From Malus domestica (lineage: Eukaryota; Streptophyta; Magnoliopsida; Rosales; Rosaceae): 64,000 nucleotides of DNA. Numbering within the stretch: position 1 is the stretch's first letter; each line of letters begins with the position of its first letter. The stretch spans positions 7,895,001 through 7,959,000 of the forward strand of contig NC_091673.1 of assembly GCF_042453785.1 (NCBI RefSeq), in the 5' to 3' direction. The notes under the pieces are model-generated. The model made no database searches and was not told the origin of the DNA. It saw only the letters and a program-made list of their open reading frames with translations. Position numbers and translations under genes: made by a program. Shown piece by piece: positions 7,837-64,000 of this stretch.

Positions 7837-8158
7837 ACCCTCACAGCTTTTTTCATGGATATTTTTTTTTTAAGCATCTCACTTCCAAACCACACTTAGA
7901 GTGATCGCAGAAGCCAGAGTCTTTTTCCGTACAGAAGATTTGACAACCCCCAACCCTACCCCAATTAACGCACTGCACGTACATAAACAAAGCAGAAGGG
8001 ACCACGTGCCAAGATAAAAAATAAGCACAAGGGCTGCTGACATTTGATATGAGCATTGATTACAGCAACACGTTTCTCTCTACTAGCTGGCTCCCTCTCA
8101 AAATTTCAACTACAAAGAGAGAAGGTTGTAGATTCAAGTTGTGTGTGTCAACTCACAG

Positions 8159-41973: not shown

Positions 41974-44685
41974 TAGAAATTAATCAGTGATCAGTGGCCT
42001 AGGCTGAGGTGAGAGACATGCTTCAAACGGAAGTTGCAAACATTCTATGTCAGACGATCATTTGTGCTGTTTTTTAGCAGGCACTTCATGATTTGGTTGG
42101 AGAATGTATCTGTGACATTGCTTTCATGTCGAGGTTAACTTTGCCTTTCATCTTTGATCATCGTATAGGAATGCATCTGTGACATTACTTTGATTGCCTT
42201 TTCTTTAGAAAAGAGAATCAATTGCTGCTGAAACTCGTGTATGTAACATATTTTTGTTGGTACATTGTAAACAGCTCTCTTTTGCTTTTCAATATTACCA
42301 CTGCCGGTTATATTAGAACATATTTAATATTCACGTTGTGTTTGCAAGAGGCGGTTGGTGTGAAGTGGAGGGGCATTCTTTGCTTTTTCTTGATGAAGAG
42401 TTTGACAGTTACCGTATTATTTTATAAGGTAATATGTTAATCTCCGATATCTGTGGAATGTTCTGGGGGATGAAGATTTTAAGCCATAAGGGTATTATTT
42501 AATTTTAATATAGACAATATATTCGTTTAAAACATTTGTTGGATAGTGAACACACATCTTTTCTGTAGCTTCTTGGAAGTTGAAGCCCTCAAAATACGTA
42601 TAAAAAACAATGCTGTACATGACTGGTTACATGGTAATTTACCTTTCTAATATATGTGCACGAGAACTGTAACTGTATTCATTCTCTTTTTGCTTCTGTG
42701 CTGGGTAGGCATCAAGTTTTTCAGATATCAACTTTATTGCTTAGTGTAGTTCTTTTGTTTGCAAATTTTCAGTGAGTTCATACCAAATTGATTCTATTCT
42801 ATGGTTACCCTGTGTTGGTGTCATTCTTTATTAGTGTCATTTTTGGTATTTTGACCTCCATCAGTACCCGTGGACATGGAAAATGATTCACTTTGTCCAG
42901 TTATTCCCTTTTTTGCTTCTGATGGTGAAGAATCAACATTTCACTAGTTCTAGATTTATTTATGACGTATATCTGCGCATGTCACTGCAGTATCAAAGCA
43001 AGCAAATTGAGGAGGTTTCCTGCACTTCCAGGAATTTATAGAACTTCATTTAGTTGTTCCTATGGGCAAACTAGAGGTACCATGCAAACCCTTGGTTTGT
43101 TTAGATTTTGGTGTTATCTTCTTCGGATCTTAATGGTTTTTTCCGTGAATTATTTTGACAGCATTTTAGTGTATGCTTTTTTTTTTTGTTTGTTCCAGAA
43201 GTGTATTGAGAAATGCATTAGAAAGGAAAATGAAGAATAAAAATCAATTCTGGTTGCAATTCCTGGATGGTTCATATTCTAAATTTGACGATTTCAGGAG
43301 CATGTTGTGGCCCATTCAGTTTGCTTTTATGTTGTTCATATAATTGAATAAAATTCAATGCTGCTTAAAATCTGAATGCGTAGATACTGAAATGCTAGTT
43401 ATGATAGCGATATAAACATATTTGTCATCTAGCACTTTCTTTTGTATGTTTGTCTTGTTTCGTGCATTTTTTTGAGGACAAAAATGAGGATATGAATTCT
43501 GGTCCAAAATTATTCTATATAAAGAACTTTGAAAAGCCAATGCATGTATCCTTACGAATACTTAAGGCTTGGTTCATAAACACCATCTTGTTGAAAGCTG
43601 AAAGAGTTATAGGAGTCTTTTCTTTGGATATAAGTTAGTATGATGGTGTAATTCGTTTGAAAGTTTGAAACTCATGTTTAGAAAAAGTTAGGGTTAAGGT
43701 GGTCCGCTGATGTATAGGGATGACTAACTCGAAGCATATAGACTACGGTTTATATACATGGTTTAGAGGAAACTCTAGCTGATTTTCTAAATTTTGTAGT
43801 TTTGTATCAATAAATGGGTTTTCGGAATTTGAATCTCTTTAATGGATAAGAGGATACTCCTTGCTTGATATTCGGTTATTGTTGCTTATCTGTGTCGTAA
43901 TTCCATTATAGGCACAGCTGGAGTCGAATGGGTTGCTTGAAGATGGAATATAGTTGTCTGCTTCCCATAAACTTAACCAAATATCGTATGAGGAGAATCA
44001 GTAAGCCTAGGTGGAATGTAGACAAATACTTGCCATATGCTTTGCTGCAGGTGGTGACTGATGAGGCTCGAGAGGCAGATTAGGGCGGTAGAGTTATCGC
44101 ATGCAAATACAGGTAATTAGCTGATGAAGTTAATGCACAATCATAGCTAACGATCTGCCGTTGTGGGACTCGATTATGTCTGCATAGTCGAAAATGTTAG
44201 GTTGCATTTGCGCACCGAGTAGTCTGTAGTGTATTGATCTCACTGTTTGTCTCGATCCTTTCCATATATATATATATATATATATATGTTATATATTTTT
44301 TGAATACATCGATATTTTTTACATTAAAGGGGAGGGGGAATTCGGCTGAGCGGTTCATTCCAAAAATTTGATGTTTGGTTTAGGCATGCGACAATGAAAC
44401 CTGGGTAGTCAGGTGAAAATTGTTCTCCTATGTAGACTGTATACAAAAAGGAAGCGTGAATTTGGCATTTGAAGTATATAGTTTACAACATACAAGTTTC
44501 TTCCTATTTCTCTCCGGCCGCTGGACTTGTAGTCGGAAACAAGTCGTACACTTCAAAGTACCACATCGCGAAGAGATGGCGGTGCAAACCAGAACAAATC
44601 AACGATTCGGGGCGTGAACCCTTAACGTCTATTTTCGCAGGTCGGTTTCTCAACGCCAGTGTTGCCGGGAAAGAGTGGGAACGTA
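41974..44685. other. CDKG 3' UTR and spacer between convergent genes
   Basis: Probably CDKG 3' UTR to about 42,450. The rest is AT-rich with a (TA)n run at about 44,266-44,288. Short open frames (for example 42,962-43,240 and 43,450-43,638) show no family features. I see no gene or clear transposon here. Confidence 0.5.
44266..44288. repeat. (TA)n microsatellite
   Basis: About eleven uninterrupted TA units downstream of the CDKG gene. Confidence 0.95.
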
Positions 44686-46488
44686 TCAAGTCGAGGAGAA
44701 AACTAACGTCTTTCCAAGCACAAAGGTAATCAAAGACAGTTCGATGAAAAAGATCGTGTTGAGGAGGCCTCTGTCGACCGTCCATCCGAAAATTGTGATC
44801 CCTCCGATGTTGGTTTGCAAGTACAACACTGCATTGGAGAATAAAGACATGGATCATGATCCCACACTTCAACAACCAACACAAGTGAACTAAGAGAATA
44901 CAAAGAGATGTACTTCGGAAGCAATGGAAGCTGATACATACCAAAGGCTTGTCTCCTGTGATACGAAGACATGTACGAAGCCAGCTGTGTGTTTGTAGGC
45001 ATTTGAACATAATCCATCGACTCCAAATCACTGTCGGAGTAACTTATATGCAGCGAGTTTAATGAGTTGGCGGCCTCTGAGTTCACTGAGCCGTTTGAGC
45101 TTCTGTTGTGAGATGTATCGTTAGAACTGCATGTCATTAACGCATTCCATCTACTGGCAACTGTCGCTATGCCTTGCGCTCTATGGGAAATTCTGGTTGC
45201 AGTGTGCAGGGAAAGAATAATGCCGACAACTTGAACAATCGTGGAGACCTGAAAATTTGGGAGAAAAAATAGAAGGAATTATGATTTATGAGCCTGTAAG
45301 AGCGGGAAGGCACACAAATTTACGACACTGATTTCTCCACTGTATCCTGTGGTTTCAAATAGAGTCACAAACTGGCTAGCTGTGACAACTAAGAACTGCA
45401 GTAGGAGGAAGATCCGGAACCTGTGGCTTATTTTACAGAGATGGTAGCGCAGGCGGATATGCTCCTCCATAAACACCAGCATGTCAGATTCCCTCTCCAA
45501 GAGCCTTCCGAAATCGTCGAAGTGGATAACTTGCAAATTGCAGACCAAGTGAAACAAAATGCTGGCTGTTAAAGTGATCGTACTCGCATAAGCCCATGAC
45601 AGAACCAAAGCTAACAGTACGCCGACCGACATCCCCCACCCCCATGAATCCTGATGGACATATATCATCCGAACAACCTCACGTAGAGTCTTCAGAATAA
45701 AACATGGGAGCGCCCACCGAACGAGCAAGCAGAAAGAATCCTGTCAAGATATATGTCCCAAGAAAATTTGGTTACCACATTTTAACTTCATATGTGGAAA
45801 ATTCTAGTATACTATAAACACCTACATCTGTGGCCGTTGAATTATTGGCCGCACATCTAATGCTACATTCATTCAATGGATGCCATACACCGGAGCATAG
45901 CATAATTTTCGGGTGATATATACAATGCACATGTTCATAACACAATCAATTCATCAAGTAAACCATTTCAAATTATACCTTAATCTGCTTGATATAATCG
46001 TTTCGAAACCGAACCATGTGACCGCTATTGCGATCAACAGACAGGAACCGCCGAATGCCATACTTGCGAAGACTCTGAGAGATGCAGAGCACAGAGACCG
46101 CCGCCAGAACCGCTTGCGATCCCACGATAACTAGCTCGAACCCTTTAATCTGATACTTGTCACAGTCGGAGCAGTTGAACACCACAAGCGCAACCACCGG
46201 AAGAGCCACACCGATGAGAACCAGGGCCGTCCAGGACAGAGCAAGGCTCAACCAAGAAGATTGGTTGAAACCCAAGAGAGTGAGAAACGTTTCTAGCCAT
46301 TGGAGGGTTTGGTCCAATTGCGTGTCTTTATATTCTTCTTCTCCTCCCAGGTGGTGGTGGTTGTTGTGGTGGTTGCTGTGGTGGTTGTTGTGGTGGTAGT
46401 TATGGTGGTGGTGGTTATTGTTATCAGAATGGAGCAGAGGGGTAAGTTGGGAAGGTGGCTCCTCTGTTTTTATAAAAAGATCCGCCAT
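44686..46488 (-). CDS. DUF3537 membrane protein, copy A (gustatory-receptor-like family)
   Basis: Four exons, high to low: 46488-45979, 45740-45324, 45248-44942, 44828-44686, in frame, 458 residues. About seven hydrophobic segments are visible (ALSWTALVLIGVALPVVAL, VIVGSQAVLAAVSVLCI, GVLLALVLSWAYASTITL, FLLLQFLVVTASQFVTLF, STIVQVVGIILSLHTA, IFFIELSLITFVLG), with a long hydrophilic Ser/Asn-rich loop before the last. DUF3537 proteins are plant relatives of the animal odorant/gustatory receptor superfamily; the Arabidopsis member MRB1 affects organ size (memory). The N-terminus has a His/Asn-rich run (about residues 23-47) from an expanded ATG/GTG-type repeat, absent in copy B. Exon 2 ends at GTC|GTAAAT and lacks the NGGDFA residues kept in copy B. 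It is the first gene of duplicated block 1. Confidence 0.9.
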
Positions 46489-47784
46489 GGATGGATTAAG
46501 AGCTTAATTAGGGAGCTTAAAGCTGAGATTTTAGCGGGTTTAGAGATAAAACGGTGGCAACCCAGTTGAGATTTTGTTGCTTTAAGTAGGAAAGTAGGAA
46601 TCTTTTTGCAAATTAATTTACAGGCCCAGCCTGTCGTCGGGTTAAAGAATCAGATCAAAACCCAGGTTTTTTTTCTTTCTTTCTGAATCTTCTGATTTTC
46701 TTTACGCTTAAGAATATACTTAACCTGGAGGCCTGGAAATTGGAATTCTTTAAGGGGAAGACAAAACGATGATTGAGTGACATGTATTGGGAACAAAGGG
46801 GACAAAAAGTGACTCGCAACAAATGTCGGATCTGTAATCTTAGAAAATGCTTTTGTTGTTTCATATTTTAGAACACCAACTTTGTCGAATTCGAAGGCTT
46901 CTGTGTTCCCGCCAAATAAGAACATGTCCGGGCCAGTCATGGCCTCACCGGAAGAGCAATCATTGGCCGACATATGTGACAACTAAGCTAATTAAGCATG
47001 TCGGATTATGCGGTTTTGATTGGGGTTTAAGGTTAATTAATTGGTGGGGGATCGGTGATTGGAAAGAGGGTTAAGGGGGTGGAGACTGGAGTGGTTTGAT
47101 TCAAGTGGGCTGGAGCATTGTTGGTGGCAGATGATTCGATTGAGATGGTGATGATTTTGGTATAGTTAAATAGGGAAAGAGTTTTCGTGGAAGGATATGA
47201 TTCAATGCACTAATTTATGATGTCTGTTTTTGAGGTAGCGATATAGCGTGATAATTGAAGGAAATTAAACGATAACTTTAAAGAGTGGAAGTATTAAATT
47301 ATTAAAAAATTATGATTTTTAATCAAAATGGTCTCCATAACTCTTTATTTTGGTTTTTAAGAATTAATCAATAGAAGTAGTTCCTGAATTTGTCCATCGT
47401 CAATCATTTTGGTTATTTTCTAAAAAATCTTCGTTAAATTTAAGAAACCACCGGTGCAGAAGAGGGCTTGATTTGACAAAAATACCTCAATTTAATACCT
47501 ACATCAAGTATTAGCATTGCTAGCAATTCTAATTGAAAACATAATTCAAAATAACAAAATTTTAACAATAGAATTTAAGATGAAAAGCTCGTACGTCTCA
47601 TCAAAACAATAAGTTTGATTCTCAATATTGCTCTCTTAGCATCTCTAGCATAAAAAACATAATTTTCAAATATAACAAGAGAATTTGATGTAATGAAGTT
47701 CATAGGTCACATATTGACCAAAAAAAAAGTTCATAGGTCACATTGAAGCAATAAGTTTGATTTCTAATTTGCTCAGTGAAAAAT

Positions 47785-47945
47785 GAGATATTTTTCAATG
47801 TGATCGGTACACGGGGTAGTACACCACGTGTCATTATACAAATAGTGGGATATGTATACTAAAAAGTTAATAACTTAAAAAATAAAATTTCTCACTACTC
47901 CTATTAAAACACGTGATGTACCACTTGTGTTCTCGTGGAGCATTA
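47785..47945. mobile_element. MITE, family 1, copy 2 (inverted relative to copy 1)
   Basis: Begins GAGATATTTTTCAATGTGAT and contains 'cacgtgtcattatacaaata' and 'aaaagttaataacttaaaaa', the inverse of the sequence at 6,560-6,736. Confidence 0.7.
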
Positions 47946-48184
47946 AAACCCGCCAAAGAGAGCCTAGCCCATAATTTCCATAGTCGTAAGTTGAGACCGC
48001 TTTACACAAACAATACCGCAAAATATTATATGTATCACAGGTGCCTCACGATCTCAAGTTGAGAATAACGGAGATTGAGCCCAGAGCTTGAAGCTCAAAT
48101 TTAAAATGCTTAAATTTTCCTATTGTTACGTCAATTAAGATAATTTTCAATCCACTCAACTATATATTCCACATCAATTCTTTT

Positions 48185-48350
48185 ATGGGAATTTTAACGA
48201 AAAGTACCTGGTACTGTTCACTTTAACGAAAAACCACATTTTTACACTAAAAAGTCAATCCTGGTACTATTCATTTTGCTATTTATTTTGTCATTATCAT
48301 TAAAACTCAAAGTTTTCAAGTTTTTTTAATTAGTTTTCCTTTCTTTTTTA
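48185..48350. mobile_element. MITE, family 3, copy 2
   Basis: Same direction as 31,485-31,650; about 85-90% identical by eye over 160 bp, starting GGGAATTTTAACGAAAAG. Confidence 0.8.
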
Positions 48351-48694
48351 TTTGGTGGAAAATGACACACATTTGGTAACGAAACTAAGTTTAGTCTGTC
48401 ATATAGTTGATTTTATATGTCAACTAGCTCTTAATTTAACATTTTTTCATGTACTATATAAATTCTAATTTCCGATAAAGAAAGAATTGGTTTGACAATA
48501 TTGATGGACTTTTATATATTTGGTCTGGAGATCGATATGGACTTGTACATTTGGTGGTATATCAGGTCCTCATCTGTTTTGTTCTTAGAGCTCGTCTTTA
48601 GTCCCTAAACCCAACCCCATTTATATTTATAAACAAGAAGTCGTCACTTGGCACTGTACACAAAAGAAATTAACTAAAATAACTACATTTATAT

Positions 48695-48915
48695 ATAGAA
48701 AATTATAGCAACGGTTCCTTAAATTTAATCCAATTAGAGTAATGGTCCATTGATTCATCAAAACCTGTAGTTATAGTCATTTTCATTAACTTCATCAGAA
48801 TTCTGTCAAAATGAGTCATATTGAAATGATCATTGTTACAGTTGGGTCAAAGCTGAGGGATCATTACTCCAGTTGAGTTAAAATTGAGAGACTGTTACTA
48901 CAATATACTCATATG
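48695..48915. mobile_element. MITE, family 2, copy 2 (shorter)
   Basis: Left 'cggttccttaaatttaatcc' and right the complement of 'agtctctcaattttaactca', with the inner phrase 'tcatcaaaacctgtagttat'. It has one inner repeat where the 30.3-kb copy has two. Confidence 0.75.
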
Positions 48916-49034
48916 TATATAAGGGAAGCACACCAATTTGGGGAAGCTTTCAATATTCCTAAAATACTCCTACAAATTTTAACTGAACGGCAGACCTGAC
49001 ACCATTGACATATAAGCCCACGTTAATAACATGT

Positions 49035-49198
49035 CTAATTTTATGATTTTTTTTTGAACAAACGATATTAACTATATTAAGGGGTGAGATATTGGGCTAA
49101 GCCTCATAAGTGGGTTCAAAATCGCATTGACGAGAATCGAACCTAAAATCTTTTACTTACCAGTAAAGAGGAATACCACTACACTGTAATACTAAGTG
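49035..49198 (-). mobile_element. tRNA-derived SINE
   Basis: Read on the minus strand it starts near 'agtgtagtggtattcc' and has a box B 'ggttcgattctcg' about 40 bp later. It ends in an A-run ('ttgttcaaaaaaaaatc'). About 160 bp. The tRNA-like head is degenerate. Confidence 0.7.
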
Positions 49199-49407
49199 AT
49201 AATTGTGCGATTTAAAATGGAAACAATGAACAACATTCAATAAAAATATGGTCAAAATCGTAAAATAATACCATTCACAAGTTTTGGAAAAAAATATAAA
49301 AGAAAAAAGAATTAATGTGGAATTCTCTGTTCTCGACAATATATGCTCCCATCTCAATAATGATAATTTCCAATCACCAAAAAAACACCCACACTTGAAA
49401 TTTATTA

Positions 49408-49615
49408 GGGTAAATTATACATAACTACCTCAACTATTCGGTCATTAACAGTTTCATACCTCATATTTAAAAGTTTTAATGTCATATCTTATCTTCGAAT
49501 TTGTTGCAATGTGCTACCTCCGTTACATTGGCTGTCAATTGGTCAGTTATATGATGACGTGGCATACGCCACGTCCCACCATTTCCACATATGAACTTCC
49601 ACGTGGTCTGCCATG
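49408..49615. repeat. MULE left terminal inverted repeat
   Basis: About 200 bp, matching the complement of 54,900-55,105 with roughly 80% identity by eye. Confidence 0.9.
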
Positions 49616-50519
49616 TAGATTTCCTGCCAAATTAATTTTCATGTAAAAAAAAACTAGAATTTCTTTGTCAACATAATTATTTCCCGCCAAAAATCGTCCA
49701 CGTCAGCAAAAAAAATATTTTTTTTTTTTAAGGGGTCCAATTTTGGAAGATAATACAACCTAAAAAAACCAAACCAAATGGAAATTGTACATAAACACAT
49801 GATATAACCAAAAATGAACACAAAGTCCACTTGAAACAAAACATTTGCAAAGACCAAAAGATGAACTGTAACTCATATAGCATCATTGAGCCATCTAACA
49901 TTTACAAAGATATGCATTAGACATCCTTAAATATCCCAAAATGCACAGTGCACTGATCCAAAAAACATACTGAAATCCATCTATCAAAGCAGTGCAAAAC
50001 AATGCATTTTCAGGGATACAAATCAGTTCAAAAAACCAAAAGAAATTCAATGTTTGTGATGTCTAATTCTAGAACCCATGTACCATAATTTTAGTTCCTA
50101 CTGCACATAAAACATGAAGTGAAAACAGTAATTTGTTACAATTTCTGGCATCTTTAGGTCTTGGTTTGCCTTGTCTTTCTCTGCTTGGTGGCTCTCGGTG
50201 AATGAGCTTCAGGATTTGCAGATGAATCATCCCTTGATTGCGATGCCTAATTTCAATGTTCATTACAAAAAGGTTAAATGCAAAGTAAGGTTCTAAACTA
50301 AACTTGTTGTTGTAAACTTCAAAGAAGAGGATTAGGTTTTGTACCTTAGATTTCCTTGTTCTCTTTTTAGGTGCAGCTTCGGCTGATGATGATGCTCTCT
50401 CTTGGGCTGATGTGGATGCCTATAAGAAAGTATAAAATCATTCATTAAAGGATTAAAGGATTAAGGATTAAAGGATTAAAAGATTAAAGAAAGTACAAAA
50501 TGTTACTTGTTTGTCCCTT

Positions 50520-53380
50520 AGAGGAAAATGTCAATGATGGGTCTGTGAATTATGTCCTTCTTGCTTGCATATAGTACACTTCAAAGCACCTTGCCCTTTC
50601 TTTCCTAGCTTAAATGGCTTAGGAGGACCTTCAGGATTATTTGGTGGGTTGGTGGGAGTTTGTTCACCATCTTTCTCCAAATTAGCAGCTTCTTTGTTTC
50701 TTTTCTTCCTTGGTCTTCCAAGTTGCCTTGTATATAATGGAGGCAAGATTGGTGGGTTTTCAGTATCCTCCTACAATGACATACCATTCATTGGCATTAT
50801 TAAGTAACAATAAACTTCCAAGTACCGTGCCTTTGAATAGTATGCATCCACATAATTCTCAGGTTTTTCTCTCTTGAAATGGATGATAGATATTGCATGG
50901 TTGCAAGGTATTCCCGTCAAGTCATACTTCATACAAGAGCATGTCTTCTTAACCAAGTCCACCACATATTGTTCCTCACCTATAGCATCCACTTGAAATT
51001 TGGTCCCTCATGACCATTATGCAGTGCACCTGCCACTTAAAAGTTTGGCTTCCTCCAACTTCTTCCTAATCTTAGGGCAGAAATCTCCTACTTGCTTCAT
51101 CATTATACCTCACCTTATTTGAATTCTCTTCATCAACATAGGGTTTTGCCTTGGCACTAGTATGACTGCATTGAATGATTCACACAAATTATTGAGCAAC
51201 ATGTCACACTTTGGATAAGTTTCAAAGTGGGACTTGCTTCATTGAGTTGCAGGCTTTTTCACTAGCTGATTGTAGGCCTTCTCATTTAGCTTCTTAACCT
51301 CATCCATTGCCTTTTTGAAGTGTGGAACCATTGTTGTTTTGGCAACTGCCCATAGAGCATCTTTTAAAGTTTTCCCTTTGAACAAATTCTTACAGTTTGT
51401 GTACAAATGCCTCACACAGAATATGTGGTGGCATCTGGGGATGACCTTTTGAAATGCTAGAATTAGCCCATTTTGCTTGTCATTGATAAATGTCCACCCA
51501 TTTTGGTTTTCTATACCCACATCATCAGTTAACAGTTGTAAGAATGTCCACCCATTTTGGTTTTCTATACCCACATCATTAGCTAAAAGTTGTAAGAACC
51601 AAACCCAAGCTGCATTTTTTCCATTTCCACCACTTCATAAGCAATAACCCATGTCTCATCATTTGGATCATGCCAACAACACATAGCAACTGCCCTCTAT
51701 GTAAAACCTTTAAGTGGCACCCATATAAACCTATCAAAAGTCTACATCCTGCCTTAAAGCCTTCTTTGCATGCCCCCAACCAAACATATATCCTCTGAAA
51801 CCTTTCCCCATCCAACTTCAACTTCACAGTACTTCTAGGGTTAATCCTTCTTACTTCATCAGCAAAATCCCACAATTTTGTATATTGCTCTGCATGTTTC
51901 CCTTCAATAATCTTGAAAGCTTTATTTAATGCCCTATAAACCTTCATCTTTGTATACCCATGATTCCACTCGTATTCCACAGTTGATAAAAAAGATTTGA
52001 CAGGCCATATGGGATTGAGCTTTATCCGATCCAAGTACAAATCTGTGAGTAAAAAAACAGTCATGTTCTTATTTGCCCAAGTCCTCCCACAAGTGTGGTG
52101 ATTAAGGACTGTCTTGATTTGGATGCTGCTTGATCCATGCATCTTGCCAACAACACACATCCAAGGGCAGTCCTTTGCACCCTTGGCAGTAATCTTCAAC
52201 TTCTCATTCCTATATAAATGAATTTCCCCATATCCTTTCACTAAGGAATACATCATGACAGCTCTCTTGAATTGCACATTGTCTCTGAAAATAAGCCCTA
52301 GAGTAAGCTGTGGATTCTTCATTTCCATTTTCTCATTAAACTCTGGATAATGCTTTCTTTTTTGGCCTTCTTCCTCACCTTCAGAGTGTACACTTTCCAG
52401 ATCATCATAATTATAATCTGGTTCATGAACCAGATTCACATCCCCATCTCCAGCTTCTTCAACCTCTTATTGTCCTTCCCCTTCTTGTCTCTCCCCTTCT
52501 CTTTCATTTACTTACTCTTCTTCTCCTTCATTGCTTTCCTCAGTTTGCCTTTTTTTCCTTTTCTGAGATTGCCTTCCTGCTCTTTGCACCTCATTTTTTT
52601 GAATCACATCATACTTAGCAAAATTTGGGGTATCTTCATCACTCTCTACAAAGTCACTGTCTTCTTCAGGATCTTCTTCTTCACTTTCTTCTTGGTCTCC
52701 TTCAAAATCGATAGGTACATCAAAGAAGGTATCACCGTGTTCATCTTCACCTTCTTCACCAACTTGTAAACCTTGTTCATCAACTTGTACATCTTGTAAA
52801 CCTCCTTCTCGAGCAACTTGTACATCTTCTTCCTTAGCCACACTTGTACCAGCTACTCTTCTTGGTGAAAACCTTCATCCGAGCACATAACAGTCACCTC
52901 TTCTTCAATAGACACCCCTTTATTATCTGAGGGTCCTTCAATAGCTAGCAACCCTTTTTTTTCTTGGTTTACAAGTTATTGCCATAATATCCCCTTCCTC
53001 CTCACTTAATTCCTCAATAATCACTATGTTTGGACCGGTGCACTTCGTATACTCCATAAATTGTTGTTCCTTGGTAAAGGCTTCTTATGCAAACAATTCT
53101 TCAATGTACATGTTTAACACTCGAGCCTTTGGAACAAAGTTACACATCTTTTGTACATCGGCATCACTCTGAATGGGCTTCAAACCATTACTAAAGTCCA
53201 TGTTGGGAATCTTGTAGTAATAGTTCATGAACATCTCATTATATCCTATAGCTTCCACCATATCATTTATCACAGGGAGTGACATTAAATCCTTGTCGCA
53301 ATAATCTATATATGCAACTTTCCCCCCACAGTAGTATTCATGACCGAGCTCCCCACCATGGTGCAAACGAATCAAAAATA
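50520..53380 (-). pseudogene. MULE transposase (MuDR type), broken
   Basis: Pieces in order on the minus strand: an N-terminal PB1-like part (53,375-53,085: IRLHHGGELGHEYYCGGKV..YIDYCDKD); an acidic linker (52,841-52,512); the MuDR N-terminal DNA-binding part (52,439-51,900: GLIFRDNVQFKRAVMMYS, CPWMCVVGKMHGSSSIQIK, HTCGRTWANK); DDE-type core pieces (KAGCRLLIGLYGCHLKVL; FINDKQNGLILAFQKVIP; HHIFCVRHLYTNCK, to about 51,239); a SWIM zinc finger (CSCMKYDLTGIPCNHAIS, near 50,900); and a CCHC knuckle (CTICKQEGHNSQTHH, near 50,540). Stops and frame changes separate the pieces (for example near 52,470, 51,700 and 51,000-51,240), and a 58-bp tandem duplication interrupts the core near 51,490-51,600. 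It cannot encode active transposase as it stands. Confidence 0.9.
51480..51600. repeat. 58-bp tandem duplication in the MULE transposase
   Basis: 'aatgtccacccattttggtt' + 'ttctatacccacatcat' + 'agttgtaagaa' occurs twice in a row with few changes. Confidence 0.92.
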
Positions 53381-53489
53381 GTTTTGGATAACCTGAAATT
53401 CACAAAAAAAAAAAAAAAAAACAGTTAAAACCCTAAGACCACAACCCACCATAAATGTAGACAAAGCAAAGCACAATGCACATCACAGA

Positions 53490-53895
53490 GAAATGCCCTA
53501 AGCCTTAAAGCCAAACCCCTAACACCCAAGTCCTAAAGCCTAACCCCTAACCCCGAAGCCTTAAGGCCTAACCCCTAACCCCTAAGCCCTAAGGCCTAAC
53601 CCCAAAGCCCTAAGGCCTAACCTCTAACCCTTAAGGCCTAAGTCCTAACCCCCAAGCCCTAAGCCCTACCTAAGGCCTAACCCCAACCCCTAAGCCTTAA
53701 GGCCTAACCCCTAAGCCTTAAGGCCTAACCCCTAACCCTCAAGCCCTAAAGCTTAACCTCTAAGCCCTTAGGCCTAACCCGTAACCCCCAAGCCCTAAGG
53801 CCTAAGCCCTAAACCTCTATCCCTTAAGGCCTTACCCCTAACCCCTAAGCCCTAACCCCTAAGCTGTAAACCCTAAACCTTAAACCCTAAACACA
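53490..53895. repeat. Telomere-like degenerate minisatellite inside the MULE
   Basis: About 400 bp made of variants of CCCTAA, CCCCTAA and CCTTAAGGCCTAA (for example 'ccctaaggcctaacccctaa'). Plant telomeres are CCCTAAA repeats; here exact CCCTAAA is rare and a ~20-24-bp compound unit dominates. It lies upstream of the transposase coding start. Confidence 0.92.
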
Positions 53896-54899
53896 GAAAA
53901 CACTACATCTTCTTCACCAACAAAAAAACACCAAAATGACCTTAGTTAGTGCAGGCAACAAACCTTAGGACCACACCCACCCCAAATGTAAACAATTGCA
54001 ATTCAACAACCAACAACAAAGCAAAGCACAAAGCACATCACAGATAAAAGCACAAAAGGACCCAAAAGGACCCCATTATCCAACAAATCAGTTAGCATTT
54101 TGAATAAATTTGAAAACGACCCACCAATCTCCAACAAACAAAACACCTAAAGGACCTTCCATTATCCAACATTTGAATAAAAAAAACAAAAGAAAGCACC
54201 CAAATTTCAACTTTTGTTGAACAATTATACAAAGGACCCCCAGGACCACCACCACCCAAACTACCTTTTCCCCGAGGCCCCGACAAAAATACATGAAGCA
54301 CCCACCGGACCCCTGGACCACCAGCACCCAAACAATCTTTTTCTCGACAACAATAAACAAATGAGCCACATGACCCTCATTCTACAACATATCCATAAGC
54401 ATTTCGATTAAACAATCAATGAAACCCACAAATCACCAACAAAGATTTTCGAATAAACAAACCTAGAAAAAGGGGATGCAACAAAGCACAAAATGAACTG
54501 AAATTTGTACTTACAGTAGGTAGGCGTCGTTTGCTTGGGATCCTTGCGCACATTCCAGCCCATTTCAAATCCTTCGAAATACTATCAAATCTTTTGAAAA
54601 CCAGAAGAACTTATGGTTTTCAACAAAAACGAACAAAAGGAAGGTAGGCGACAACAACACGAACTAAGGGTTTTCGCTCAATGAACTATTGATCGCGATT
54701 TGGGGTGGGTGATATGAAATTAGGGTTAGGGTTCTTTGATTTGGGAACTGGAACGAAAGAAATGGAAGGGAATCGCACGGTTAGGGCTTTACGCTTCAAT
54801 TCGAATTGCATGATTCACGAGGGAAGTTTTTTTAAAAATTTTGATTTAAATTTTTTTTTTAATTTTAAATTTTTTATGATATACAAGTGTCATCCTTTT

Positions 54900-55105
54900 A
54901 GATGATCCACGTGTATCAGATGCCAACGTGGAAGTTCATATGTGGAGAGGGTGGGACCCAGCATAAAAGGAATTGACAGACAACGTAACGAAGGTAGAAC
55001 AATGCAACAAATTCGTAAACAAATGTATGACATTGAAACTTTTTAAAGATGATGTATGAAATTGTTAACGACCCAATAGTTGAGATAGTTTTTTGTAATT
55101 TATCC
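54900..55105. repeat. MULE right terminal inverted repeat
   Basis: Complement of the left end. Outer bases GGATAAATTAC against GGGTAAATTAT. Confidence 0.9.
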
Positions 55106-55503
55106 AATTTATTACGATCCCTTGGATTTGTCATTGAATAATCACTTAAGAAATAAAGAAATGACTAAAACAAACAACACATCTTTAAGTAGTATCTTTC
55201 TGTACGTGTGAATCACTTTTTTTTTGTTTTTTTGTTTTTTTGAGTGAGTACGTGCGAATCACTTAAAAAATAAGAAAACAAGGAAAATAACACATCATTA
55301 ATTAAAACGGTAGCACTCGTGATGAAAAAATGGCTCTTGCATGAGCGGATGCGGAAAGGCCGGTAAAAGATAAAACGTGACGCGTTATTGGACAATTTAC
55401 AAACGCAATTAACTACTTACTACTTAGTAATCCAAACCCAAGTTTAATACCTCCATTTCCAATTCAAATCCAGAAACCTCAACCTCAAACGACTGATACA
55501 AAA
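55106..55503. promoter_or_regulatory. Short upstream region of the 4CL-like gene
   Basis: Only 398 bp separate the MULE end from the start codon, including the 9-bp target duplication. No clear TATA box was identified. Any promoter elements further upstream have been displaced by 5.7 kb. Confidence 0.4.
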
Positions 55504-57868
55504 ATGGCCACTGAACAGAAGAGCAGCTGCGGCGACGGTGGCGGCAGCATCGATCCAAAGAGCGGGTTTTGCTCAAAGACCAAAACTTTCCACAGCCTCA
55601 GACCCAAATCCCAACTCCCTCTTCAAACCACGCCTCTTTCCCTCACCCACTACATCCTTTCCCGCCTCCACCAGTCCCCTCCCCCGCCTTCTACTCCCGC
55701 CCTAGTCCACGCCACCACCGGCCACCAAATTCTCTACCCCGAGTTCATTCTTCGCGTCCAAAACCTCGCCGCCTCGCTCCAATCTCAGCTCGGTCTCTCC
55801 CACGGCCAATGCGCTTTCGTTCTCTCCCCCAACTCCCTCAACCTCCCCATCCTCCACCTCTCTCTCCTCTACCTCGGGGTCATCGTCTCTCCTTCCAACC
55901 CCGCCAGCTCCAATCCCGAAATTTCCCGTCAAATCAGTCTCTGCAACCCCGCCGTCGCATTCGCCACCTCCGACACCGCTCACAAAATCCCCAACTCCCT
56001 CCGCCTCGGGACCGTCCTCCTCGACTCGTCCGAGTTCGAGTCCATGATGCTGAAGTGTCCGAGTTCGACCAAGTGGAGCCAAATTAGCGTGAGCCAATCG
56101 GACACAGCCACGATTCTCTACTCGTCGGGGACGACCGGGAGGGTCAAAGGCGTGGAGTTGACTCACAGGAACTGGATATCCAATTTGGCCAGCAGCGCGG
56201 CTCGAAACGCGTCGGCTCCACACGCTGTGTGTCTCTGTACGGCACCGTTTTTCCACGTGTACGGGATCGCGTACTGCCTGAGGGCTTTGGCGACGGGGGA
56301 CACGCTGGTGTGGATGGCGAGGTTCGATATGAAGGCGATGTTAGGATCCATCGAGCGGTTCGGAATCACCCACGTGGCCTGGGCCCCACCGGTGGCCGTG
56401 GCGTTGACGAAGTATGGGGATGGAAACGAGATGGGCGGCTACGATTTGAGTTCGCTGCAAGTGATCGCCTGCGGCGGCGCTCCGCTGGCTAAGAGCGTGA
56501 TCGAGAAACTGAGGGAACGGCTGCCCAACGTACAAGTCTCTCAGGTAAGGTTAGAGTGTGTGTGTTGTCAGTGACTGATGTGTATGTTTTCGATGAGCTT
56601 AAGGATTTAACGACGACGTTTAATGTTTTTAGCCATCTGGCGGGCTGTGCAGGCATACGGGATGACGGAGACGACGGCCCGAGTGTTTGCCGCGGTGGGT
56701 CCGGAAGAAACTGGGGTTGAAGGAGCCAATGGAAAGCTGATGTCAGATCTTGAGGCCAAGATTGTGGATCCTGAGAGTGGCACTGCGCTGCCTCCTTTGA
56801 TGCATGGGGAACTTTGGGTCAGAGGACCCAACATTATGAAAGGTAACGTTGATATTCACGCATGTATTTTATTTGGACACGACGTTCATTCTGAATCACC
56901 CGACGGGAAAACGTCGTAGCCTTTTACCTTGCTTTGCAAGGAGTTTGTTTATTACGATTCGAACTTGTGACATTTCGCTCACAAAGGAGCAACCTCTCCG
57001 TTGCGCCAAGGCTTACCCTCATTAGCTTATGCGGAAATCTTATCAAAATAAATGTTGAAAGAGACAATTGACGGTGAATTACAAATAGAATGGGGAGTTG
57101 GATAATAGAGTACTAGTTCATGCTTTGATTGGTGGTGGTGGTGGTGCTCATAAGTGCAGGTTACGTTGGTGATGAAGCAGCAACTGCCGCAATTTTGGAC
57201 TCGGAAGGATGGTTAAAAACCGGAGACATTTGCTACATTGACAACCAAGGTTTTCTATTTTTCGTCGATCGGCTCAAGGAATTGATCAAGTACAAAGGCT
57301 ACCAGGTTTGCCACCTCTGCACCTCACCCTTTAACCAAACACTTTCGTTTTCTTCTTCGCTTCAATGGGATTGCTTATGTTTGCATCAGGTTGCCCCGGC
57401 AGAGTTGGAGGATCTGCTTCACTCCCACCCAGATATTGTCGATGCAGCTGTGATTCCGTAAGTAACTTACTCCGTCGTTTGAAAGTGATTGAGTTCAAGC
57501 TTCACGTGTCAACATCTCATCGAGTTTGTGTTTGGGTGGGTGGAAAATGATTGACAGGTACCCAGATGAGGAAGCAGGTCAAGTTCCGATGGCGTTTGTG
57601 GTGAGGTGCCTTGGAAGTGCCATTGATGAATCACAGATCAAGGATTTTATTGCCAAACAGGTAAACCTCAGACTATTTTCATCATCTAACTACCATAAAA
57701 ACGAAGTTTTACAGTTTTACCAATTTTAGTTTTACCCTACTGCATCAACTGTAGGTTGCGCCATATAAGAAGATACGACGCGTAACATTCACCATGGCAA
57801 TACCAAAGAATGCACAGGGTAAAGTGTTGAGGAAGGAATTAATCAAACTTGCACCGTCCAGGTTATAA
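55504..57868 (+). CDS. 4-coumarate--CoA ligase-like enzyme, peroxisomal type (ANL family)
   Basis: Six exons: 55504-56544, 56653-56842, 57160-57305, 57390-57457, 57558-57660, 57755-57868, in frame, 553 residues. Adenylate-forming motifs: P-loop [14 protein letters not shown] from residue 204, AYGMTETT at the start of exon 2, GWLKTGD and [13 protein letters not shown] in exon 3, and [13 protein letters not shown] with the catalytic Lys in exon 6. The C-terminus SRL is a type 1 peroxisomal signal. The 4CL-like clade with such tails includes OPCL1, which activates jasmonate precursors, and fatty acyl or cinnamoyl ligases. The sequence alone does not fix the substrate. Exon 1 is notably GC-rich. 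Intron 2 holds a SINE. This is the intact copy; a second copy at 61.5 kb is ruined. Confidence 0.93.
56885..57035 (-). mobile_element. Au-type tRNA-derived SINE in intron 2 of the 4CL-like gene
   Basis: On the minus strand: box A text 'cttggcgcaacggagaggt', box B 'caagttcgaatcgt', then 'ctccttgcaaagcaagg' + 'taaaaggct', matching the plan of the Au SINE of flowering plants (remembered consensus). About 150 bp, antisense to the host gene. Confidence 0.75.
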
Positions 57869-58139
57869 ATTCCACTTTCTTTCTTCTGGTGTTGGTTTAG
57901 ATTTCAAGCTCTCAAATGTAAATACGATTAATCGCTTTGGCAACAAGCAAAGATTGTTCATTACGCCAAAGTATGTGCGATGTTTTTCAAATTATTACAG
58001 ATTTTTCGTTACTTGTTCAATAAACAAACCAAGATTGCACAAATGTTGTTTATCGATTAAGACACTAATGAGCTCATGCGTACGAGCTTTTCAGATGGTG
58101 AAACAAAAGAGAACATACCAAAGCATTGATTCGTATTCG

Positions 58140-58755
58140 GCTAAACTCTACAGTCATCAAATATAAATGCTGCTGGAGACTGCAATGCCAAGTTAGCCGG
58201 GGGGCTGACGACGGCTGCAGCAACCGTATGGAGGAATGCCAGCTCCGCTTCTATTTTTAAGACGGCTATCGTTGTTTCTTAGGTCAATGGTCTTCCGTAT
58301 CTTCTTTACTCTAGCAGAGAATCTGTTGAAGGACTTCCAAATTTCACTATGCATGAGGGGAGGGAGTTGAGAGAGTATCTTGAACAGCCATAACCCTTAT
58401 TCATGATCTCACTCCATCACTCTTGGAGCTCAATCTCGGATGCTACAGAATTACTCAGAGTAGTAGTGTTCCGCGTATGATTCTACCCATCTTTTATAGC
58501 GACCATCCACAGCGTATGGATGGTCCTCAATTACACTAGGAATCAAAGGAACTTCCACAGCCATGCCTCTGAAAATGTTAATACAAGTGTCAAATAACTA
58601 GTCAATTAATTCTGGAAATAATGACACAGCTGCACTGACTATGCACCGTTAAAACCTTACCTTTGTATAAGATCAGCTCGTAATGCCTCGAGAGTTGACC
58701 TACATGGCGTACTTATCCGGACCCAAAGAAGCCTAAACTATCCCCCCTCCACATA
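58140..58755 (-). pseudogene. Lipoxygenase fragment (C-terminal part only), block 1
   Basis: Matches the intact lipoxygenase region 62,498-63,480 in pieces: the C-terminal tail ('ggaatgccagctccgcttct', 'aagacggctatc'), the middle ('atctcactccatcactcttg', 'gagctcaatctcgga'), the text before the last intron ('cacagccatgcctctg') and part of the previous exon ('agatcagctcgtaatgcctc'). Internal stretches are lost, including the part holding the SGQH iron ligand. Similarity stops abruptly at about 58,750, where sequence like the DUF3537 3' flank begins. It is a truncated relic made by the block duplication and then decayed. Confidence 0.9.
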
Positions 58756-58765
58756 CTCTTGTACA
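58745..58765. other. Tandem duplication junction
   Basis: To the left, sequence matches LOX exon text near 63,480 ('cccctccacat' against 'ccccctccattt'). To the right, it matches the 3' flank of DUF3537-A near 44,545 ('gtacacttca', 'ggtgcaa.ccag'). Confidence 0.75.
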
Positions 58766-58826
58766 CTTCACAAAACCAAGCAAACGGTCGAAGCGATGAA
58801 GGTGCAAGCCAGGATGGATCAATGCA

Positions 58827-61191
58827 TCAAGCAGCCGAAAAAACTATTGTCTGTCCAAGAACAAAGGTAATCAAAGACAGTTCGATGAAAAATATCGTGG
58901 TGAGGAGGCCTCTATCAACCATCCATCCGAAAATTGTTATGCCCCCATGATTGGTTTGCAAGTATAACACTGCATTGCAGAAAGGGATAGAGTATGAGCC
59001 ACAATCAACAACCAGTCAAACTGAACCATGGAAATGAACAAACGAAAACCATAAATGTCGACCAAAGCGCCTTCTTTTCAAACACAAAAATGGTAAACAG
59101 AATGCTTGAAATTTAAGGTTTGATACAAACGGGAAGAACTGAAACAGCATAAGCTGATGCATACCAAAAGCTTGTCTCTTGTGGTATGAAGCCATATGTG
59201 AAGCCAGCTGGGAATTTGTAGGCACATGAACATAATCCGCCGACTCCAAATCACTCTCAGAGTAACTTGAATGCAGTGAGCTCAATCTGTTGGCAGCCTC
59301 AAAGTTCACCAAACTGTCTGAACTTCTGTTATGCGGTGAATCATTAGAACTGCATGTCATTAACGCATGCCATCTACTGGCAACTGTCGCTATACCTTGG
59401 GCTCTACCAGAAATTTTAGTAGCTGCGTGCAAGGAAAGAATAATGCCGACAACCTGAACAATTGTGGAGACCTGAAAATTTGATGGAAAAGGAGGAAGGA
59501 AATTTAATGCATTAAATTTAGTCTGCAATCAATGATGATTAGAGAGTTTTCAGAGAGGTCCAGTGTTAAATGGGGGAATCCATTATGGTTTTGAATCGAA
59601 TCCTATAAGAGTGAGAAGTTAATCAACGGAGAATTAGATTCACAAAAATCATTGAACTTACTGCAAAATCGCCGCCATTTATGACAGTGATTTTTCCACT
59701 GTATATTGTGATCTCAAATAGAGTCACAAACTGGCTCGTGGTGACGATTATAAACTGCAGAAGAAGGAAGATCCGGAACCTGTGGCTTATTTTATGAAGA
59801 TGATACCGCAGACGAATATGCTCCTCCATAAATAGCAACACATTAGAATCCCTTTCCAAGAGCCTTCCATAATCATCGAAGTGGATAACTTGCAAGTTGC
59901 AGATCAAGTGAAATAAAATGCTGGCTGTTAGAGTGATTGTACTCACATAAGCCCATGACAGAACCAAAGCTAGTAATACAGCAAATGACAGCCACCATGA
60001 CTGATGGACATATATCATGCGGATGACCTCACGCAGAGTCTTCAAAAGGAAACACGGCAGCGCCCACCAAATGAGCAGGCGTAAAGAACCCTGTTAAGAT
60101 ATGATACCCAAGGAAAGTTCTAAGCACAATAAGCACTGGAAACTTCAGGCCAAAATTGTCTATACAAGTTAAAATAAACAGATAACACGGTTAAGTCTTC
60201 CCGATATTTGCTGGCTGCAGCTAGTGTGTGCTATGCCTATCAATATTGGTAAACAAATGCAAAGATGGAAGATTTCGATTATGTTTTCACCTGCAGGTCT
60301 GAAGTGGAAACAAAACATGCTGAATTTGGTAAGCACTTTATGTGCATACCATCTAATCCTACTGGTTAGTAGACAGACGCATGACAGATTTGAATAGATA
60401 ATATTTATAATCACGAATTTAAAATCAGACCAAAGGGGACACCTTTAACTCGCATTCAAGACATAAATTTGGATTAACTCGTTCACACAACTACTAGGAT
60501 TTTCTAGTATGCATCAGTCAATAGTAAGTTAGTAACGCCGGGATCTTTGGCTGTTTGGATTCTTGGCCGCACATCTAACCTTTCTTTCATCGATGCATGC
60601 CATACACCGGAGAATTTTCGCAACTATGAAAATCCTCATATCATCAAATTTGAAATCGATATATGATAAACCTAATATTTAAGTTCTTCCAATATTTAAG
60701 GTCTTCGCAAGTAAAACCATTTCAAACTATAATCATACCTTAATCTGCCTGATGTAATCGTTTCGAAACCGAACCATACGGCCACTATAGCGATCGACAA
60801 AGAGGAACCTCCGAATGCCATACTTGCGAAGACAATGAGAGATGCAGAGCAAAGAGACCGCCGCCAGAACCGCCTGCGAGCCCACGATAACGAGCTCGAA
60901 CCCTTTTACCTGATACTTCTCGCAGTCCGAGCAGTTGAACATCTCGAGCACGACCACCGGAAGCACCACACCGAGAAAAGCCAGAGCAGTCCAGGACAGC
61001 GCAAGGCTGAACCAAGAGGATTGATCGAAGCCCAATAGAGTGAGAAACGTTTCTAGCCGTTGGAGGGTTTGGTCCAATTGGGTGTCTTTGTATTCTCCTT
61101 CTGGTGCTTGGTGGCGGTTGTTGTGATTTGAATCGAGAAGAAGGGTAAGCTGGGAAGGTGGCTCATCTGTTTTTATATGAGGGTCCGCCAT
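58827..61191 (-). CDS. DUF3537 membrane protein, copy B (gustatory-receptor-like family)
   Basis: Four exons, high to low: 61191-60739, 60090-59662, 59471-59165, 58969-58827, in frame, 443 residues. The start is MADPHIKTDEPPSQL, matching copy A; an in-frame ATG 72 bp upstream would add residues with no match in A. Exons 3 and 4 have exactly the lengths of copy A (307 and 143 bp). The same hydrophobic segments are present. Exon 2 ends at ..GGDFA|GTAAGT, a strong donor, 21 bp beyond the place matching copy A's donor, which here reads GTCATAAAT. The His/Asn run of copy A is missing. It is probably a plasma or inner membrane protein of unknown ligand, and the first gene of block 2. Confidence 0.9.
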
Positions 61192-61539
61192 GGATGGGTT
61201 AGGGAGCTTAAAGCTGAGATTTTGATGGGTGTGGACTTTGGAGCTAAAATGGTGACTACCCAATCGAGATTAAGGTGGTAAAAGTAGGAAAGTTGGAAGC
61301 TTTTTTGGATTAGGAACTTAGTTACTGAGAATCTGATCAAACCCAGGACATCAATCTTAAGTCACTTTTATTCTTATTTGGTAAATTTTTGTTCAGGAAG
61401 CATCTGCTAATCGACCAGAAAAGCCGGTAATATTTTATTTTTAAATATAGCAAACGTGAACAAAAAGAAATTGTTTGGTGCAGCTTTGAATCGTAAACTC
61501 GTTAATGAGTTCCAGCCGTTGGATCATTATAGGTAGTTG

Positions 61540-62225
61540 TCGTTTTCTGGGGGTTGTGTAATGGATGACGGAGACAACGGGCCCCAGTATTTGCTGACAG
61601 TGGGCCCCAGTATTTGCTACGGTTGGCCTGGAGGAAACCCAAGTGGAAGGATCTACTGGAAAGCTGATGTCATATGTTGGCGAAAATGTACGAAATCAAC
61701 TGTGAGAGTGGCATTCGGTTGCCATTTTAAGACACGGTGTTGCAGATGTCGGTTAAGTAAGTTCATCAGATTCAATGCCACAAACGTTCGTTAAGTCAAT
61801 TGATTAAGTCAATTGATCAGGAAGAGACATTTATTTTCGATTTCACTTGATGAGGAATGAGCAAATGCCACAATACAAATAGACTCGGTAGGATGGTTAC
61901 AATGAAGGTTTTCTGCTTTCGTTGATCGGAAAAGGATTTGATCTAGTACAAAGGCTACCAGGTTTGTCTGCTTTACACCCTTTTTAAATGGGAGATTCGT
62001 ACGTATCATATCGGTGTATATATTGTGTTATACTGATGAGAATATATCACCGGTTACACTCAAGTTTCTGCCCTACTTAAATACGACTTCTGTTTTTGCT
62101 TTGCATCAACTGTAAGTGCACCGTATATTGAAAATACGACGTGTATCATTGATTGACGCAATTATCAAAGAATGCACAAGGTTAAGTGTTAAGGAAGGAC
62201 TTATTGCATTATCCAAGTTATAAAT
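61540..62225 (+). pseudogene. 4CL-like pseudogene (block 2)
   Basis: Pieces match the 55.5-kb gene from exon 2 onward: 61,560-61,700 (genomic text of ATGGATGACGGAGACAACGG against ATGACGGAGACGACGG, then 'ggaaagctgatgtca'), 61,855-61,965 (exon 3: 'gagcaaatgccacaat', 'ggatggtt', 'gtacaaaggctaccagg') and 62,110-62,225 (exon 6: 'aaagaatgcacaagg', 'gtgttaaggaagga'). All of exon 1 with the ATP-binding loop, and exons 4-5, are gone. A short internal duplication ('gggccccagtatttgct' twice near 61,580-61,617) is also visible. It cannot code for a ligase. Confidence 0.9.
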
Positions 62226-62497
62226 TCCAGTTTCTTTCTTCTAGCATTAGTTTAGAATTCATGTACATACAATTACTTGAGCACCAAGCAAAGATTGCTC
62301 ATTATTCTAAAGTATGTGCGATGTTTTCACATACACAATACTACACTGATCACAGATCAGTCACTAGTTTAATAACAAGCTAAAATTGCATAAACACTGT
62401 ATATCGATTGAGATACTAATCGATCGCTTGAGCATACGGGCTTCGGACAGAGTGAAACAAAAGAGAACATACCAAAGCATTGATCCGAGTACAGCTA

Positions 62498-64000
62498 TCA
62501 GATAGAGATGCTGTTGGGGATTCCGCGGCCAGTAACTCCAGGGCCTGAGGTGGGAAGCAGCAATTCGTATGGCGGAATGCCAGCTCCACTTCTGTTTTTA
62601 AGACGGCTATCTTTGTTTCGTAGGTTAATGGTATGTTCTATCTCCTTCAGTCTATCAGAGAATCTATTGAACATCTTCATAACTTCATTATCGTTGATCC
62701 AATGGGATTCCAGAGGGTTCACCTGACCCAAGTACTCTTCATCAGGAGAGTGAGTTGAGAGTGTATCTTGTACGGCCATTATCTTGGTGGCTTGAAGCTT
62801 CGTTGCCAAGGAAGAAAGGAAAGTTTGCTGCGGGTTAGAAATAAACATTTCGTAATCAGGGTCGTCTTCTTGCGGAATGAGTTTTCTCATAATGGCCGGG
62901 CGGTTTGGTACATAACCACCAAAAGGGTACTGGCCAAAGTTGATGGCTGCGTGTTGACCTGAAGCGACCCAAATTATCGTTGTTAGTACACCGGATAAGT
63001 CCTCTTTGGTATTGAGTTTAGGCCACCAGGGCTCGTTTCGCTTGTCTTCGTGTCCCTTATTCTTGATCTCACTCCACCACTCTTGGAGCTCAATGTCAGA
63101 TGTGACAGAATTTGGCTCAGAGTAGTAGTGTTCCACATAGGATTCTACCCATTCTTTTATAGCAGACCATACGAGGAGACCATCTGCAGCGTAAGGATAG
63201 TCCTCAATTACAAGTTTCACGCCACAAGGAGCCGAAGGATCTTCCACAGCCATGCCTCTGGAAAATGTTCACACAATTGTCAAATAATAACTCCGTTAAT
63301 TTGGGAAATAATACACGGCATACTGCCTCTATTCACTTGTTCAAACATTACCTTCGAAGAAGATCAGCTGGTAATGCCTCCATGTCAAACCTCCACATAT
63401 CCTTGTATGCTGCAGAGCTTACATCCATGGCGTACTTTCCAGGACTAAAAGAAGCCTCAATTATTCCCCCTCCATTTATTAAGCTTTGTCGTGCAAGTGC
63501 GTTAATTTCCAAAGTGTAGCGCATGTGTGGGTGGAGTAGCTTGTAAATCGGGTGCATTGAGCTAAGCTGTCTATGAGTCGCAATTATATAAGGTTCAACG
63601 GAAGCATGAGTCCTCAACCTAATAATTACCAAACAAATTAGAAGTGTTGACAGCATAGTCTAAAATAGTTGTTAATTGATAAAACTCTGACAATGTAAAC
63701 CATCCAGATTGAAATGAATTCAGTTTTACCAGTGATTGACTAGTTGATGGATGCCGGCATCGTTTGAGCAAACATGAGCTTTGGCTAGCTTCCAAATCCA
63801 ATGTGTAGTAGCATGATGCCCATGAGTATAAACACGTTTATTTTGCGGGGATAAAGCCGTTGGTGGAAGTGAAAGCTCAATAGCTATAGGCCTCACAATA
63901 CCAGCAGGGGTATAGAAGAACACCGTCCTAGAGGCATAAGCTTTTCTCCCAGGCAAGGCGTTCATCCTCTCAATAAATGGCATATACGTGTCATGGTGAT
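62498..64000 (-). CDS. 13-lipoxygenase (LOX2-like), C-terminal part; gene continues past window
   Basis: Three exons visible, high to low: 64000-63730 (enters from outside), 63618-63352, 63257-62498, in frame. The catalytic core shows the iron ligands HQLVNHW (two His five apart), H and N of [10 protein letters not shown], and the C-terminal Ile of PNSISI. Also [39 protein letters not shown] and [13 protein letters not shown]. These enzymes add O2 to linolenic or linoleic acid; the family with this wording is mostly plastidial 13-LOX, feeding jasmonate and green-leaf volatiles. The plastid presequence, PLAT domain and first exons lie beyond 64,000. This is the intact copy of block 2, nearest neighbour of the 4CL-like pseudogene. 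Confidence 0.93.

Follow-up and report, generated by a model that had tools for sequence, protein, structure and literature searches.

The stretch of Malus domestica DNA analysed here (hereafter the window, 64,000 nucleotides) corresponds to C13:7,895,001-7,959,000. Its right-hand part holds DUF3537 genes, a 4CL-like acyl-CoA ligase and a lipoxygenase (LOX), together with remnants of the latter two and a transposable element:

44540-44685, no strand: left edge of the duplicated unit, in the 3' flank of DUF3537-A; the junction sequence aligns to 44,539-44,602
44686-46488, minus strand: DUF3537-A, four coding exons, open in the exon model (Pfam PF12056, 5e-49; four-copy alignment)
49399-55114, no strand: Mutator-like element in block 1, with terminal inverted repeats (TIRs) at about 49,408-49,604 and 54,926-55,105 and the 9-bp target-site duplication AATTTATTA
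55504-57868, plus strand: 4CL-like acyl-CoA ligase, retained in block 1 and modelled with six coding exons (Pfam AMP-binding, 4.1e-54)
58150-58751 (lower end approximate), minus strand: LOX-A scrap, 5'-truncated at the junction, holding the final exon and intron of LOX plus a portion of the exon before them, and carrying indels
58745-58790, no strand: duplication junction, LOX exon 8 plus DUF3537 3' flank, also present on C16 at about 7,843,178
58827-61191, minus strand: DUF3537-B, four coding exons, open in the exon model
61540-62250, plus strand: 4CL-B remnant, parts of exons 2 and 3 and of the last exon
62498-64000, minus strand: LOX-B, intact lipoxygenase, C-terminal exons within the window (Pfam Lipoxygenase, 4.2e-112)

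Self-BLAST of the window showed that DUF3537 (minus), 4CL-like (plus) and LOX (minus) are present twice and colinearly, at 44.54-58.75 kb (block 1) and 58.75-63.5 kb (block 2). The first-pass annotation had read the same order and strands twice (44.7/55.5/58.2 kb and 58.8/61.5/62.5 kb), which agrees with a colinear chain of ten matches pairing 44,685-58,751 with 58,826-63,474 at 73-83% identity:

Match 1, plus-plus: 44685-44878/58826-59014, 83%
Match 2, plus-plus: 44928-45278/59151-59501, 83%
Match 3, plus-plus: 45318-45769/59677-60119, 82%, E 5e-125
Match 4, plus-plus: 45826-45895/60543-60612, 82%
Match 5, plus-plus: 45955-46607/60708-61305, 76%, E 9e-147 (best)
Match 6, plus-plus: 56676-56752/61603-61679, 77%
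Match 7, plus-plus: 57241-57323/61899-61979, 81%
Match 8, plus-plus: 57741-58350/62102-62691, 73%, E 2e-91
Match 9, plus-plus: 58394-58689/63054-63380, 78%
Match 10, plus-plus: 58691-58751/63414-63474, 80%

The alignment of block 1 with block 2 is unbroken across the last 4CL exon, the intergenic spacer and the 3' end of LOX, and the 3' flanks previously described as alignable (57,870-58,140 and 62,226-62,497) both fall inside match 8. The two blocks kept different members, as had been claimed: the ligase is retained in block 1 and reduced in block 2 to a remnant at about 61.54-62.25 kb, and the complete 3' half of LOX is found only in block 2, block 1 having just the last exon, the last intron and a partial preceding exon. 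Block 1 is at present 14.2 kb long, or about 8.5 kb without its later transposon. A duplication of DUF3537 alone, with LOX and ligase fragments landing nearby independently, would fit a BLAST chain that is broken into ten pieces. However, order and strand are preserved throughout the chain, the alignment runs uninterrupted from the last 4CL exon through the spacer to the 3' end of LOX, and the two ends predicted for a single unit meet at the junction; such separate events are highly improbable.

LOX homology in the block 1 scrap stops at 58,751, equivalent to 63,474 in LOX-B, and sequence like the 3' flank of DUF3537-A begins within about 10 bp of this point, some 10 bp at the junction being assigned to neither side. 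The earlier claim that the first LOX copy is C-terminal only and ends at about 58,750, where the flank-like sequence begins, was thereby refined to 58,751 with a resolution of about 10 bp. The C13 junction aligned to 44,539-44,602 with a local score of 54.5 (shuffle maximum 43; 0 of 500 mononucleotide shuffles reached the score), and the left parental breakpoint lies at about 44,540, with an uncertainty of about 10 bp, 146 bp beyond the stop codon of DUF3537-A. The junction on C16 scored 57.0 against the C13 DUF3537-A flank (shuffle maximum 50); the C16 flank beside its own DUF3537-A copy (DUF-A') fits the junctions less well (scores reached by 2/500 and 11/500 shuffles). No continuation of LOX past the junction was found, the LOX sequence upstream of the breakpoint being unmatched there (319/500 and 448/500 shuffles reached the score). 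The locus thus combines head-to-tail colinear copies on one chromosome with a junction that unites the right end and the left end of the unit and recurs on C16, as in a tandem segmental duplication. The 5'-truncated LOX, the whole LOX and the LOX/DUF-flank junction were all found, in line with the proposal of the first-pass annotation that one tandem duplication accounts for every piece.

How the ends were joined is a separate matter. Unequal crossing-over between repeats is a common route to tandem duplication, and it would have produced the same duplication here had the unit carried repeats at its ends; when the breakpoints were compared in inverted orientation, one comparison out of four rose slightly above the shuffles (8/200). 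However, the parental breakpoints in LOX exon 8 and the DUF3537 flank showed no direct-orientation homology in any of the four comparisons (57 to 147 of 200 shuffles reached the score), although end repeats could have eroded since. Because the parental ends lack such homology, end joining or template switching appears likelier for the joining step, and unequal crossing-over seems unlikely.

The whole-genome search and a reading of the C16 sequence located the same arrangement on a second chromosome:

C16 7,815,401 and 7,844,149, matching strands: DUF3537 matches (whole-genome search)
C16 7,819,816 and 7,831,017, matching strands: 4CL-like genes (whole-genome search)
C16 about 7,833,540-7,833,700 and 7,843,062-7,843,178: LOX scrap in two pieces (C16 sequence read)
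C16 7,847,466, matching strand: LOX match (whole-genome search)

The order on C16 is DUF-A', 4CL, 4CL, LOX scrap in two pieces, DUF-B', 4CL remnant and LOX-B'. The LOX/DUF-flank junction is the same, with its breakpoint in the same LOX exon, and the homoeolog here takes the place of the synteny comparison with related genomes that the first-pass annotation had proposed. The whole-genome LOX matches include pairs on C9/C17, C3/C11, C5/C10 and C13/C16, all of them homoeologous apple pairs according to PMC8558331. The ligase-LOX neighbourhood is also present on C16, with the second DUF3537 gene between the two. The block 1 ligase is twofold on C16 (7,819,700-7,822,483 and 7,830,950-7,833,423), and the Ks of 0.13 between the two copies makes them younger than the whole-genome duplication. 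A false duplication introduced by genome assembly is scarcely credible: we found no evidence in its favour, the copies differ by 17-27%, and the arrangement is repeated on another chromosome.

The four DUF3537 copies allowed the tandem event to be ordered relative to the whole-genome duplication that gave C13 and C16. Among 100 two-two sites in their coding alignment, 90 grouped the copies by block, 3 by chromosome and 7 crosswise; the corresponding counts for 30 such sites in the spacer were 24, 3 and 3. With 200 bootstraps, B13 and B16 separated from the A copies at 100 in the spacer, and in DUF3537 (all positions, C14 outgroup) the B clade received 100 and the A clade 76. In the third-position DUF3537 tree, A16 fell outside at 59%, the C14 outgroup being too distant and the root weak. 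C13 and C16 share block order, with copies that group by block, as in homoeologous blocks, under a weak rooting.

Divergence gave the same order. The synonymous divergence of the DUF3537 pair, which the first-pass annotation had put forward as a check, was estimated by NG86 at 0.40-0.49 between tandem copies, against 0.21-0.28 in four of five homoeolog comparisons (DUF B13-B16, 0.21; LOX-B pair, 0.22; C13 ligase against the two C16 ligases, 0.27-0.28). The fifth, DUF A13-A16, had a Ks of 0.37 (bootstrap 0.29-0.45), which overlaps that of A16-B13 (0.40, bootstrap 0.32-0.50); by the A13-A16 pair alone, the gap between the tandem and the whole-genome duplication is small. The first-pass annotation had named strongly differing divergences of the gene pairs as a refutation; within the genome, the two blocks diverge to a similar extent in their unconstrained parts, where K2P in the spacer (0.29-0.34) stands beside the DUF3537 Ks. 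The lower K2P of the last LOX exon (0.20-0.21) is what constraint on the intact LOX copy would lead one to expect.

The closeness of these two Ks values, together with the failure of A13 and A16 to group in the third-position tree, is what might be expected if C13 and C16 had undergone independent tandem duplications after the whole-genome duplication, or if the arrangement had been copied from one chromosome to the other. However, only 3 of the 100 DUF coding sites and 3 of the 30 spacer sites group by chromosome, and C13 and C16 share their breakpoint, down to the LOX exon that it cuts, leaving this explanation very little probability. Because the junction recurs on C16 and the copies cluster by block rather than by chromosome, we place the tandem duplication before the whole-genome duplication; these sequences make the tandem duplication the oldest event, the whole-genome duplication the next and a C16-only ligase duplication the latest. 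In PMC5400374, the apple duplication is quoted as 30-45 Ma, and the case is made for two duplications in close succession around the time when Maleae arose, with the Gillenieae split at ~54 Ma. Gillenia trifoliata, of the sister lineage, lacks the Maleae duplication, and its Chr04 is collinear with apple Chr13/16 according to PMC8558331.

The copies have since met different fates. In the aligned last exon, the LOX-A scrap differs from both intact copies by 22, 19 and 19 changes at the three codon positions (of 142, 136 and 138 sites), whereas the differences within the intact LOX pair (B13-B16) are mainly at third positions (3/2/19). The scrap is thus truncated, disrupted and changed equally across codon positions, as a pseudogene would be. 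Lacking the 5' half of the gene, it was non-functional from the outset and has decayed neutrally. The intact LOX-B extends past the window end to ~66,618 in the exon model, and its closest solved chains are 8qdr and 8qdq (E 7e-96). It should be noted that the C16 scrap piece at 7,843,062-7,843,178 is 91-92% identical to intact LOX over 114 bp, and the C13 scrap only 76-79%; gene conversion of the C16 scrap was considered, and a stretch of 114 bp does not suffice to separate it from chance similarity.

The ligase remnant of block 2 gave no match to exon 1 on either C13 or C16 when the block 2 sequences were compared. On C13 and C16 alike, the beginning of its exon 2 is short of a few bases present in all three ligase genes, which is consistent with decay that began before the chromosomes split; judging from this shared loss, decay of the remnant had probably begun by then. 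The retained ligase has a predicted C-terminus of SRL in the exon model, which we take to be a peroxisomal-type signal. This SRL-ending ligase and LOX adjoin tail to tail, an arrangement reminiscent of two oxylipin synthesis steps.

The DUF3537 reading frames are open in all four copies (C13 and C16, exon models), and the A pair had dN/Ks of 0.057/0.368, the B pair of 0.040/0.206. In the four-copy alignment, a small deletion in C13 DUF3537-A has removed the exon-2 donor that the other three copies retain. An in-frame cryptic donor at ~45,324 could take its place and would drop seven residues. Near the N-terminus of DUF3537-A lies a histidine/asparagine-rich stretch (~46,344-46,425) that is shorter in the three remaining copies than in this one on C13.

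The distance from the last homologous DUF3537 flank to the ligase in block 1 is 8.7 kb on C13 versus 2.7 kb on C16, and 5.7 kb of the C13 spacer is a later Mutator-like insertion. This 5.7-kb element has TIRs of about 200 bp at 76% identity, a perfect 9-bp target-site duplication and transposase pieces, the features expected of a Mutator-like element. Its Pfam matches were SWIM (2.6e-7, above the cut-off), MULE (1.2e-5, 26.1 bits against a cut-off of 27.6) and MuDR (0.001, 19.1 against a cut-off of 25, thus below it), and two of the five pieces scanned matched no Pfam family. Self-BLAST also revealed internal repeats at 53,496-53,890. Other repeats were seen nearby. A 266-bp direct repeat (98.5%) lies between the LOX scrap pieces on C16 (7,835,085-7,835,350 and 7,840,168-7,840,433) and possibly marks the ends of a young element. 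In the window, 8153-9076 and 10569-11454 form a direct repeat of ~0.9 kb at 80% identity, and the pairs 12379-12620/14930-15173 (97%) and 1-151/5441-5591 (99%) are young and may be the ends of recent elements.

Outside C13 and C16, the best matches lie in an older paralogous region on C14, with DUF3537 at C14:24,873,206 (55%) and the ligase at C14:24,800,333 (49%), ~72 kb apart; a ligase match on C6 comes close to the latter (49%). The DUF3537 and 4CL-like matches on C14, at distances of ~41-73 kb, have the same relative orientation as at C13, and no LOX match on C14 was among the at least 37 LOX matches listed in the whole-genome search. The C14 pair suggests a possibly old linkage of DUF3537 and ligase, though it falls short of proof of the ancestral arrangement.

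Taken together, the locus almost certainly records a single tandem duplication that preceded the whole-genome duplication and was followed by unequal decay of the two blocks. The duplicated unit ran from ~146 bp 3' of the DUF3537 stop codon, across the 4CL-like ligase and into LOX exon 8. The proximal LOX copy, severed from its 5' half, decayed neutrally; the distal ligase copy is now missing exon 1 and portions of further exons, and both DUF3537 copies were kept under purifying selection. The whole-genome duplication giving C13 and C16 came after the tandem event, with decay of the ligase remnant probably already begun. Weighing somewhat against this reading are the overlap of the A13-A16 and A16-B13 Ks values, the weak rooting, the poorer fit of the C16 flank beside DUF-A', the unusual closeness of one C16 scrap piece to intact LOX, the unassigned bases at the junction and the one inverted breakpoint signal. 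Later changes include, on C13, the Mutator-like insertion in block 1 and the loss of the splice donor in DUF3537-A and, on C16, the splitting of the LOX scrap in two pieces, presumably by an insertion, and the second ligase duplication. Beyond the first-pass annotation, the event is older than the whole-genome duplication, the block 1 spacer is mostly Mutator-like, and the ligase was re-duplicated on C16 only.

A functional reading would see the GRL-like DUF3537 membrane protein, the probably peroxisomal acyl-CoA ligase and LOX as a small lipid-signal (oxylipin) group, in which selection kept one kind of ligase, one LOX and two DUF3537 genes per homoeolog, the latter diverged in use; we regard this as quite doubtful. 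For annotators, the 4CL match at 61.5-62.2 kb and the LOX match at 58.15-58.75 kb represent no working genes. More broadly, the locus is a worked example in which one junction, resolved to ~10 bp and present on two homoeologs, places a tandem duplication in time relative to a whole-genome one and reveals which copy was dead from the start and which fell into decay afterwards. Among the titles and abstract openings found on LOX tandem copies in Malus, apple LOX families, Rosaceae LOX synteny and a jasmonate cluster with a 4CL-like gene, none concerned the locus itself.

Plant DUF3537 (PF12056) proteins are proposed relatives of insect chemoreceptors in PMC7746228; the likeness to the present genes is the Pfam match. 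The Maleae whole-genome duplication, as represented by the apple Chr13/Chr16 homoeologs in PMC8558331, is matched by the shared C13/C16 block order and by the Ks values of four of the five homoeolog comparisons, with the difference that the tandem event here is older. The kind of event is ordinary, a known mechanism that is well documented at the present locus. As in other partial-gene tandem (segmental) duplications followed by fractionation, the copies are colinear, an edge within a gene left a truncated copy, and different members were lost later. There is no difference in kind from such cases; here the junction is found on both homoeologs, and the event can hence be ordered relative to the whole-genome duplication.
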